This document shows positions 1-50,790 of a stretch of DNA of 64,000 bases, piece by piece (within the stretch, counting starts at the first letter, position 1; every line of letters begins with the position of its first letter). Under the pieces are notes generated by a model that did no database searches, was not told the origin of the DNA, and saw nothing but the letters and a program-made list of their open reading frames with translations. Source of the stretch: Lampris incognitus (lineage: Eukaryota; Chordata; Actinopteri; Lampriformes; Lampridae); contig NC_079214.1 in assembly GCF_029633865.1 (NCBI RefSeq), forward strand, positions 30,254,957 through 30,318,956, given 5' to 3'. The position numbers and the translations under genes were made by a program.

Positions 1-15
1 GCTACTGATTCCCAC

Positions 16-828
16 ATGACAGACTTTGTGAGATTTCTAGCACGACACGAGCTCGTCACAACTGGCCTGCTACAATTTAATGACCAGCCAGAGAGCCACA
101 GAGCTCGGCGGTGTTCCTTCCTGAATGCAGTAAGAGGCTTGAATCTAACACACAATGAAGAAATGGATCTTCTTGTTAAATGGCTGGGAAAAGAGTCAGG
201 AGCGCATGCTACGTGCATTAGATTTGTCCACATAAACCAGCCAGCAAAGGGGCAGAAGATGATGTGGAGCAGACTGGATGAGTGTTACGGCTCCATTGAG
301 GCAATTGAGAAAGCTTTGTTCCAGAAACTAGATAGCTTCCCCAACATCAGCAACAAGGATTACTCTAAACTGAGGGATCTCCGTGATCTACTGATGGACC
401 TGGACACCACCAATGCAGAGGGAGATCTTCCTGGCCTCTCCTATCTTAACACGGCCAGAGGCGTCAACCCGATAGTTCAAAAGCTACCATACGGCCTACA
501 GGAAAAGTGGCTGTGTTACGGATCCAGCCACAAAAAGCAACATCAGGTTGCATTCCCCCCTTTTTCTGTCTTTGTCGCCTTCCTCCACCAGCAAGCACGG
601 ATCACAAATGATCCCAGCTTTACACTCACAGGCCAGATTCCAGCGAACCAGAAAAGTCTTCATGGAAAGCCAGCAGGTCGAAGGAGGTCTCTGTCCACAA
701 AACAGAAATGTCTACAGCACCTCGCTCAGACCAAGACAGACACAGAAAGGAAGCAGACGATCCTGATAAGAGATGTCCTATCCACAAAAAGCCACATTCT
801 CCACAAAAGTGCTGTGCATTTTGTGTGA
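16..828 (+). pseudogene. BEL/Pao Gag-like fragment
   Basis: A 270-codon open frame. Residues ~1-190 resemble the Gag-type region of BEL/Pao elements, with a charged helical stretch and a conserved-looking PYGLQEKW motif. The last ~60 residues read out of the natural frame, because the Cys-rich continuation lies in another frame from 708. The start may be further left, outside the window. It is a decayed retroelement gene with no host function inferred. Confidence 0.65.
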
Positions 829-1022
829 AACCCATAGAGGAACAAAATAACTTCCTCAAAGAGAATGGCATCTGTTTTAAGTGTTGTATCACCACATTGC
901 ACACTGCCAGAGACTGCCAATGCACCGTGAAATGCACTGATTATGACAGTGACAGACATTCCTCTGCCCTCCATCCAGGCCCAGCACCATGGGTCAACGA
1001 GACAAGCCCTTCAGGGAGCTAG
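708..1022 (+). pseudogene. BEL/Pao Cys/His-rich (zinc-knuckle-like) segment
   Basis: This frame overlaps the Gag-like frame and carries closely spaced Cys and His residues (CPIHKK, CCAFC, CFKCC, then paired Cys before CTDY), typical of the nucleic-acid-binding segment between Gag and protease in BEL/Pao elements. It ends shortly after a HSSALHP motif. It is a shifted continuation of the same broken gene. Confidence 0.6.
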
Positions 1023-2125
1023 ACCCCACACCAACCCCAGTGGTCACAAGTCAGTGCACACAGGTCTGTGGAGGAGATCTCACCGATAGGTCCTGCTCAA
1101 AGATTCTCTCAGCCAAAGTTTATCTTGGAGGATGCCATGACAAGGCGATGAAGGTATGCGTTATCCAGGATGAACAAAGCAATAGATCTTTTGCTAGCTC
1201 CGAATTCTTTGACACCTTCAACATCCAAGGCCCCACTGCATCATACGCTCTGAAGACCTGCTCAGGCATGACTGAGAACATGGGCAGGACAGCCTCTGGC
1301 TTCTACATAGAGTTACTGGATGGTAAAACCATTCAACCTCTACCAAGACTGCTAGAATGCAATGAGATACCAGACAAAAGAACAGAGATTCCAACACCCA
1401 GTGCTGCCTTCTTCCATCCTCATCTGAAACCAGTAGCTCACCTCATTCCAGAACTGGAGCCCAATGCTCCCATCATGTTCCTGCTTGGCTGCGATGTCAT
1501 CAGACTCCACAAGGTTTGTAAACATGTCAATGTTCCCCCAGATGCCCCCTACGTCAAGAGACTCAACCTAGGATGGTTGGTTATGGGCAATGCCCATTTG
1601 GGGAGTGCTCACAAGCCACTCAGTGTGAACACCTTCTTCACCAACGCCCTAGAACCTGACATCTTTGAGCTTGTCGATTCAAACACAGATGCGGAAGTCT
1701 GTCCTCATATCTCCACCCTTAACACACAGACCACTGTTCAACAGCTTGGATCTCAGTGTTTCTCCAAGTTCTCCTCATGGCAGTCTCTGAATTGTGCCAT
1801 TGCTAATCTCAGTCATATCTCTCACAGCTACTGTAGCCATCCAGGTAGAGAGAGCAATGACTGCAGAGGGTGGCAGTTGTGTCAAGAAGCACACACACCT
1901 GAGCAGCTCAGTCAGTCCAAGTGCATAATTATCAGGGCTGTCCAGGAGAAGGCATATGCTGAAGAACTGGCTTGCCTAAGAAAGAGTGAGAAGATTCCTC
2001 AAGGCAGTCCTCTCAAAACCTTGGACCCCTTCATTGATGCACGGAATCTTCTCAGAGTTGGGGGTTGTATGAGGGAAGGAGAGCTTGAGGCCGAAGAAAA
2101 GAACCCTCTGATCATTCCTGGTTAA
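989..2125 (+). pseudogene. BEL/Pao protease-like plus pre-integrase segment
   Basis: A 378-codon frame. Residues ~30-210 look like the retropepsin-related domain of BEL/Pao polyproteins, with a LLGCDVIRLHK motif and then LNLGWLVMGNAHLG. Near 1680-1730 the frame passes directly into sequence that normally lies just before integrase (AEEKNPLIIPG at its end). The polymerase and RNase H region is therefore missing without breaking the frame. This is a clear internal-deletion derivative. Confidence 0.7.
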
Positions 2126-5902: not shown

Positions 5903-7240
5903 ATGCAAAGCCATTGATTTTGCCGCAAAACACACAGTGATATCCGAGCAAGACAGAAACATTATATACCAGGCGAAGGAATCACTTTTGTACCACAATG
6001 GAAACCCATGGCAGAAAAAAAGGTAGCAGTAAATTTGATGTAACCATGGGCAGCTTCGACGGGGCGGAAACTTGTGAACTAGTTGGAATGTATTTGTTGT
6101 CTCAACTGCAAGACCTAGACATCAATGTTGGACTCTATATAGGGATGATGAGCTAGCAATTTATAGCAAAACACCAAGAGAGGTTGAGCAAATTAAGAAA
6201 ACAATCTGCAAAATATTCTCAAGCAATGGGCTAAAAATCACAACTGAAGCAAACAAAAAACAAGTTGACTTTCTGGACATCTCAATGGACCTTAGGAACG
6301 GCACATACAAGCCGTACATTAAGCCCAACAACACGCTGCAGTATGTCCATAGAGAAAGCAACCACCCACCCTCCATCTTGAAGAACATCCCAGAAAGCAT
6401 TAATACAAGACTCAAAATGATCATCTAATGAGTCCATATTCATTGAAGCTACACCCCCATACCAAGATGCAATACAAAAGAGTACAAAAGAGCGGCTACA
6501 ATTTTAAGCTCAAATACAACCCACCGTTAAATACTGACTGCCAGCAAATCAACAAATGTAGCAGAAAACGAAACATCACCTGGTATAACCCACCCTACAG
6601 TGATACTGTGGCCACAAACATCGGTAAGCAGTTTTTTTAACTTTTGGATAAGTGCTTTACCCCGGACCATCAACGGAGGAAGATATTCAATAGGAACACC
6701 ACCAAAATTAGTTACAGCTGCATGCCTAACATTCAACAAATAATATCATCCTACAACACAAGAATCATGAACAAATCAATGACACTTTCATCACAACCGG
6801 ACTCCCCCAGCTGCAACTGCAGTGTGAATGACTCATGCCTCCTTGAAGGAAAATGCCAGTCGAAGGGAGTTATCTACCAAGCTACGGTGACAAGAAATGA
6901 CAGTGGTAAAATGGAGACATACGTTGGTCTAACAGAGGGAACATTCAAAAAGAGGTTTAATGCACACACGTGCAGCTTTAGAAACAACCGTTTAAAGAAT
7001 GTTACATCTTTAAGCCATTATATTTGGTCATTGGCGGACAGAAACATTAATTATTCAACCACTTGGAAAATCCTCTCAAAGAACAGGGAATATTCAATGA
7101 GCAGTAAAATGTGCAACCTATGTCTAACTGAAAAATATTTTATCACTTGCAAACCACAAATGTCCACATTGAATAACAGGAATGAATTGGCTAGCAGTTG
7201 CAGACATAGATATAAGCACCTATTTTGTAATTATAAATAA
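5903..7240 (+). pseudogene. Penelope RT/GIY-YIG polyprotein, frameshifted
   Basis: The C-terminal half of the reverse transcriptase is recognisable: [14 protein letters not shown] at 6041, YRDDE at about 6135, and VDFLDIS at about 6260. It is followed by a Cys-rich linker and a GIY-YIG nuclease in the 6644-7240 frame (VIYQA, YVGLTEGTFKKRFNAH, with the catalytic-type Arg). The reading frame is broken near 6018, again near 6130 and 6427, and in a T-run at about 6634. No active protein can be made. The first two thirds of the element are lost at the microsatellite border. Confidence 0.85.
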
Positions 7241-7327
7241 ATCACGCCAATAGACAAATACCAACCCCCCCCCCCGCATGTGATGTGCATGACAAGGCAG
7301 TAAATGGTATGTCCTTTCCTCAAGTAG

Positions 7328-7386
7328 CTTTATTGACAGCTGATGATTGCTTATGGCATGAAACAGGCTTGTACTGTCTCATAAAG
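7328..7386 (+). ncRNA. Type I hammerhead ribozyme in Penelope tail
   Basis: All core elements are in order. Stem I 5' strand is CTTTATTGACAG (7328-7339); core CTGATGA is 7340-7346. Stem II is TGC/GCA (7348-7350 with 7356-7358) with loop TTATG; GAA is 7360-7362. Stem III is AC/GT (7363-7364 with 7371-7372) around AGGCTT. The cleavage-site A is 7373, and stem I 3' strand is CTGTC-TC-ATAAAG (7374-7386). Stem I pairs as 5 bp, a 1x2 internal loop, then 6 bp. GUA is an allowed NUH cleavage triplet and a very short stem III is usual for Penelope hammerheads. A T-T mismatch closes stem II, which may weaken activity. Predicted cleavage is between 7373 and 7374. Confidence 0.8.
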
Positions 7387-7500
7387 AATTTACTTGATTC
7401 ACTGGATTTTATATATAAAACTTTGTTAAAAGAAACACTCAATGGTAGAGATAGTACTAAACAAATAAGGAGCAAAATAATCCAGTTATGTCAAGTAAAT

Positions 7501-7548
7501 TCTCTATGAGATAGTACAAGCCTGTTTCATGCTATAAGCAATCATTAT
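7501..7548 (-). ncRNA. Decayed hammerhead ribozyme in inverted tail arm
   Basis: The minus strand carries the same module (TGCT/AGCA stem II, GAAAC at 7528-7524, CTTGTACTATCTCAT), but the CTGATGA core reads ATAATGA and the 5' strand of stem I is gone. It is non-functional. Its 4-bp stem II supports the stem II fold proposed for the intact copy. Confidence 0.6.
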
Positions 7549-7691
7549 TTAATAATATTATTAAAAATAATGTAATGATTATTTGATTATATTACTTAAT
7601 ACTGTTAATTATTAACAATATTATACACTACTTTAACCACAATATCAAGGGAAGAACCTTTGTATAATTTGACTTAACCTCAGCTCCGTAC

Positions 7692-7786
7692 CTGATCCAA
7701 TCTTGATAAGCCCGTTGTGCTGGATAAAGATGGTGTCACAGGTCAGGTTGCCGTGGATGATGGGAGGGTCACAGGAGTGGAGGTAA
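7692..7786 (-). CDS. nrbp1: nrbp1 coding exon 6
   Basis: 95 bp coding SYLHSCDPPIIHGNLTCDTI onward to LIKIGS, with one base left over (phase 1). Acceptor TTTAG, donor GTACGG. It is the last nrbp1 exon found in the window. Confidence 0.92.

Positions 7787-15274: not shown

Positions 15275-50790
<35,516 letters not shown>

Follow-up and report, generated by a model that had tools for sequence, protein, structure and literature searches.

The motif at positions 7328-7386 of the window (the whole stretch of 64,000 nucleotides that was analysed) is best read as the hammerhead of the terminal unit (pLTR) of a decayed Penelope-like retroelement copy. We give a probability of about 85% to this reading, under which the ribozyme would trim transcripts and new copies would be inserted from uncut template RNA. 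The analysis established the presence of the motif, its conservation through compensatory changes in a second family and the narrow range of distances at which it follows the endonuclease frame.

Table 1. Features of the hammerhead locus, with the evidence on which each assignment is based.
Feature	Position	Strand	Basis
Putative reverse-transcriptase remnant, open piece in another frame upstream of the endonuclease	6147..6425	+	motifs by eye
Open frame, 199 aa stop to stop, putative Penelope-like endonuclease part with GIY-YIG-like motifs	6641..7240	+	motifs by eye; 152 same-genome matches
Stem I with outer 7-bp extension (7320-7326/7391-7397)	7320..7397	+	pairing visible; recurs in the minimum-energy fold of 7320-7397
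Type I hammerhead motif, predicted cut 7373/7374	7328..7386	+	sequence, model R1, covariation, random windows
Plus-strand insert end, common 3' end of copies (u80-83), then TA-rich DNA	7387..7408	+	3' end histogram
Tail after the unit in the inverted copy	7409..7478	-	same order found in other loci
Inverted 5'-truncated second unit copy, missing C3, G5 and the 5' strand of stem I	7479..7545	-	inverted repeat 95% complementary; alignment

Structure of the hammerhead motif

The invariant hammerhead core (CUGAUGA, GAA, the A15.1-U16.1 pair and H17) is complete. CTGATGA occupies 7340-7346 and GAA 7360-7362, A15.1-U16.1 corresponds to A7363-T7372, and H17 is A7373. The earlier note had named these bases in this order, and the cut site that it predicted agrees with the sequence. 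In the unit numbering used below, u1 is position 7328 and the predicted cut falls after u46 (A7373). Model R1, whose training set includes the window sequence, scores the motif at 83.7 bits.

Three helices with an open stem I were found, together with covariation. Stem I consists of an inner helix of 5 bp (7335-7339/7374-7378), a 1x2 internal loop and an outer helix of 6 bp (7328-7333/7381-7386), which together are the 11-bp stem recognised earlier; the seven further pairs that extend it outwards (Table 1) had been overlooked. Stem II has four pairs (7348-7351/7355-7358), one of them G·U, and is short, as had been described, but the U7347·U7359 mismatch at 10.1·11.1 that precedes these pairs had been missed. 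Stem III is formed by 3 bp (ACA/TGT) closed by the loop GGCT, and not by 2 bp as first proposed. The G10.1-C11.1 pair beside the hammerhead core is conserved as a rule, and this feature of type I hammerheads is lacking in the window. The description of the motif as well formed thus holds for the core but not for position 10.1·11.1, which is U·U in the window's family (50 of 55 listed matches).

Host element and position of the motif

The hammerhead motif begins 87 bases past the stop of the endonuclease-like frame. Searching the same genome with this frame gave 152 matches (150 scored of 3,673 candidates), which fall into two main groups with roughly 72-87% and 61-69% (about 65%) identity to the window; a 1952-aa open frame among them (L081) proved to be an artefact of N letters. 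A sense R1 match lies within 900 bp downstream in 40 of the 50 endonuclease loci L031-L080, a count that includes the window's own locus (L031) and both of the near-identical loci L043 and L044, R1 itself having been trained on part of the loci. An antisense match was found in 4 of these 50. The motif lies 89-239 bp past the end of the endonuclease match in 24 of 30 loci of the first set, and 314-507 bp past it in 16 of 20 loci of the second.

The terminal unit has the marks of a pLTR, namely an optional tail, inverted copies and AT-rich targets. Among 148 units (L001, L022, L031 and L044 left out), the 3' end lies at u76-86 in 64 and coincides with the tail end in 44; 14 units, assigned by eye to the second family, end at u49. 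The next 15 bases are 90% A+T past the u76-86 ends and 70% past the tail end, compared with 58% in the loci set. These two discrete 3' ends beside AT-rich DNA support the reading as a Penelope-like hammerhead.

The protein encoded at 6641-7240 has no Pfam or PDB sequence match at threshold, and the best Pfam hit of the reverse-transcriptase remnant, DUF7494, stays below threshold with 15.0 of 27 bits. The AlphaFold2 single-sequence model of the 199-aa protein was uninformative (pLDDT 33), and no full-length copy of the element was seen, in which a GIY-YIG endonuclease and a telomerase-like reverse transcriptase would share one ORF. The Penelope-like label accordingly rests on motifs recognised by eye, the architecture of the tail and AT-rich targets, without a library match, and is to be taken as probable. 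At locus L036, a different GIY-YIG-like frame (by eye) was observed at 469-924 (+), upstream of the Penelope-like endonuclease.

The element was also compared with retrozymes, non-autonomous units with a circular RNA intermediate; these are small and non-coding, stand in direct tandem repeats and have hammerhead cut sites at their borders. It does not fit this description, as the motif follows a coding frame and copies seldom end at the cut site. The tandem repeats near the motif are simple ones, and a search of the phage collection gave no match.

The window holds several other mobile-element sequences. A second hammerhead copy of the same family, with an intact core and an R1 score of 67.3 bits, is located at 30248-30309 (+), with TA-rich DNA and a piece of tail in inverted orientation after it. 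A unit fragment at 33169-33217 (+; R1 25 bits) and a short inverted piece, joined to it in head-to-head orientation, lie between TA repeats, directly after the apparent end of a Tc1-type copy (by eye). Further unit fragments at 31785 (+) and 54021 (+) start at u47 and u57. Long frames resembling Tc1/mariner transposases (by eye) are present at 18862-19620 (-), 29115-29999 (+), 31976-32980 (+) and 44251-45387 (-), and overlapping frames at 1-2125 (+) resemble an LTR-retroelement polyprotein (by eye). A kinase-like exon at 7693-7785 (-) has WNK1 as its best PDB match (E 0.00078), the closest relative being presumably NRBP; the element copy is therefore probably intronic and oriented antisense to the gene.

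Relatives in the genome and covariation

Relatives were sought in the 1.48 Gb genome from which the window comes. The query 7300-7560 gave 130 matches (40 scored of 3,818 first-look candidates), and the pattern CTGATGA-N13-GAAACAGGCYTGTA had 3,651 exact matches, compared with 0 for the reversed-pattern control. The decayed host element has thousands of relatives in the same genome. The pattern matches span two families, and the pattern itself selects for the core bases.

From 60 distinct motifs, 42 were aligned (alignment A1), 24 from the window's own family and 18 from the second; the remaining 18 were 5'-truncated, had foreign 5' flanks or mismatched the own-family 5' strand. All rows were chosen by their core, and the own-family rows were picked by eye; with rows so chosen, the core is identical in 42 of 42, save for the variable H17 and non-core letters. 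Of the cells of A1, 86.4% pair. At stem I pair 4, A-U occurs in 23 rows and G-C in 17 (n=42), and at pair 5, G-C occurs in 25, A-U in 6 and G·U in 4 (n=42). The covariation score of A1 is 0.206 compared with 0.116 in shuffled alignments, none of 500 shuffles reaching the observed value, and 38 cells are changed on both sides compared with 18.5 in shuffles. Neither the count of doubly changed pairs nor that of pair types was above the shuffles (reached by 455 and 465 of 500, respectively). Most of the covariation is one difference between the two families, and the second family shows what, judged from the aligned rows, are compensatory changes in stem I. Together with the position past the endonuclease-like frame in most loci, this stem I covariation makes a hammerhead in a Penelope-like tail, as suggested in the earlier note, the best reading of the sequence.

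Stem II was surveyed in the 100 core matches that head the list of 3,651, a search in which stem II had no part; the two groups were divided by their stem II letters. Positions 2-5 of stem II are paired in 50-53 of the 55 matches of the window's group, 50 of which carry U·U at 10.1·11.1. In the other group the same positions are paired in 35-43 of 45 matches, and 10.1·11.1 is G-C or G·U in 42.

Copy ends and the state of the template RNA

The junction between unit and tail occurs 2,708 times in the genome at up to 2 mismatches. Copy ends were determined by local alignment in 80 of 100 listed places out of the 2,708, all of them exact matches (0 mismatches) from contigs C1 and C2; each end may be off by a few bases. 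The 5' end lies at u-41 or further upstream in 10 of these tail copies, at u-32 to u-4 in 6, at u-3 to u25 in 50, at u32 to u39 in 4 and at u43 or later in 10. At or near the cut, three copies start at u43, one at u46 (within a base of the cut) and none at u47. Since 70 of the 80 start at u39 or further upstream and span the cut site, the template of at least these 70 was intact there. The insert in the window likewise extends without a break from the endonuclease frame across the cut site as far as 7408, and its template was therefore continuous at the site.

A footprint of cutting was sought as a pile-up of 5' ends at u47. No pile-up was found in the 80-copy sample or in a set of 120 units (those reaching u70 in the loci set and the window, ranked by likeness to the query, with the near-identical L043 and L044 each counted), of which 3 start at u47. 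These results suggest that new insertions were mostly made from RNA uncut at this site.

An inverted piece of the unit stands upstream, head to head, in 33 of the 80 tail copies (short pieces from 16 bases included), as would be expected if both target strands were primed; tail-to-tail pairs were seen as well. The 5' ends cluster about CAGCTG (u10-15), and this hexamer also coincides with or adjoins some of the joints, one of which is a perfect palindrome (L025). The clustering of 5' ends may reflect microhomology joining or stalling of the reverse transcriptase, and could equally mark the start of transcription. We put forward, as a speculation that is probably wrong, that the self-complementary letters CAGCUG (stem I and core) and GUAC (cut site) double as a joint, where two cDNAs whose synthesis was primed on the two strands of an AT-rich target would anneal in head-to-head orientation. 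If this were true, the motif would owe its retention to the joining of cDNAs copied from uncut RNA no less than to cutting.

Proposed function and alternative explanations

As a Penelope-like hammerhead, the core would cut RNA after A7373, either with the help of the element protein or by dimer pairing, in which two copies would pair via the self-complementary ACAGGC(U/C)UGU of stem-loop III; the calculated energies of this self-duplex are -12.3 and -17.7 kcal/mol for the two versions. Cutting would trim multi-copy transcripts, and in the window's family it would probably be slow because of the U·U at 10.1·11.1. Insertions would start by priming at AT-rich target sites, frequently on both strands, and their template would be RNA that, as inferred from the copy ends, was uncut at the site.

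The most serious alternative is that the motif descends from a hammerhead, no longer cuts in this family, and has been retained by the retroelement for protein binding or priming. We consider it the less probable explanation, though one with a real claim: the prevalence of U·U in the window's group and the copies made across an intact cut site both favour it, whereas the U·U lies outside the invariant core, and the core bases are all kept in the 3,651 exact matches of both families, for which the pattern selects.

The library and energy tests speak against the motif. The covariance-model check named in the earlier note was negative, with no Rfam match for the motif at the gathering score; in an E-value search of 101 nt, HH9 (RF02275) stayed below threshold (E 0.28), with 14.5 of the 52 bits needed. 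The fold energy of the motif region is ordinary (z -0.37). Nearest-neighbour energies favour a rival fold (-19.0 kcal/mol), in which the core CUG is paired, over the hammerhead fold (-15.1 kcal/mol) by 3.9 kcal/mol. The case therefore rests on the relatives. A strict descriptor, in which 10.1·11.1 had to be paired, misses the window motif and matched in 1 of 400 random window-strands. The relaxed descriptor, composed after the motif had been seen, has the 7328-7386 motif as its single site in the window and matched in 0 of 1,000 first-order Markov windows (both strands). Conservation among the sequences compared is the stronger argument against chance than such scans. A chance match in an AT-rich repeat without ribozyme ancestry would fit the Rfam result and the ordinary fold energy, but it is very improbable given the empty random windows, the fixed place past the endonuclease frame in 40 of 50 loci and the compensatory changes between families, the second family by itself already making chance unlikely.

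The inverted neighbour scores 49.7 bits with R1 at 7479-7545 (-), its pairs being broken, and forms with the unit a hairpin of -105.8 kcal/mol (z -14.3). In a transcript of the locus that reaches 7545, it would pair with the ribozyme and block it, so the ribozyme would be trapped in a long transcript unless the cut came first. That this very stable hairpin, which has a sub-threshold Rfam match to MIR2606 (E 3.1e-06, 49.7 of 139.7 bits), is of microRNA type in place of a ribozyme was rejected as highly improbable, because it is formed by two inverted mobile-element copies whose truncation points vary by locus, and the hammerhead is conserved at loci with a differing neighbour. The MIR2606 match (7362-7526, +) arises from inverted element copies, and such microRNA families call for caution.

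Comparison with known systems

Minimal hammerheads of Penelope-like elements were reportedly described by Cervera and De la Pena in 2014 and by Lunse, Weinberg and Breaker in 2017. Hammerheads in these elements are already published; the window's family has a specific U·U flaw in stem II and offers a useful genomic record of uncut templates. In the literature searched, a coverage outside which most subscription papers fall, no report was recognised that compares copy ends with the cut site or regards the core as a joint.

According to PMC6155905, PMC7761336 and PMC7229834, the repeats of Penelope-like elements contain minimal type I hammerheads, possibly active as dimers and of unknown role; their in vivo activity and role are called 'still a mystery' in PMC7761336. 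The window's family shares with them, as far as they are described in the available portions of PMC6155905 and PMC7761336, the type I form, the short stem III, the location in terminal repeats, the thousands of copies and a self-complementary stem-loop III suited to dimers. It differs in the U·U at 10.1·11.1 and the 3-bp stem III, and in that copy ends were here compared with the cut site. Where one genome holds thousands of copies, such ends can reveal part of what the hammerhead does.

The Penelope elements of Adineta, as described in PMC3846280, likewise have pLTRs in inverted orientation, one of which may bear a tail, and palindromes at inverted junctions. That text has 0 mentions of hammerhead ribozymes and favours self-priming. 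Compared with Adineta, tail-to-tail as well as head-to-head pairs were found here.

The closest experimental parallel comes from the Poseidon element PAc of the anole, as presented in the available text of PMC11167929. In vitro, its hammerhead cleavage is protein-assisted, both target strands are cleaved and extended, and unprocessed RNA is used. A pLTR hammerhead, AT-rich targets, the use of both target strands and uncut RNA as the main template are features in common, and the two reverse-transcription start sites that define the optional tail of PAc resemble the two discrete 3' ends described here. The PAc motif overlaps with the ORF start, and its cleavage was demonstrated in the presence of the protein, whereas here the motif follows the ORF and cleavage is predicted. 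Reverse transcription ran through an uncut site in most of the sampled copies, an observation from a different genome that is consistent with the in vitro result reported for the anole element in that text.
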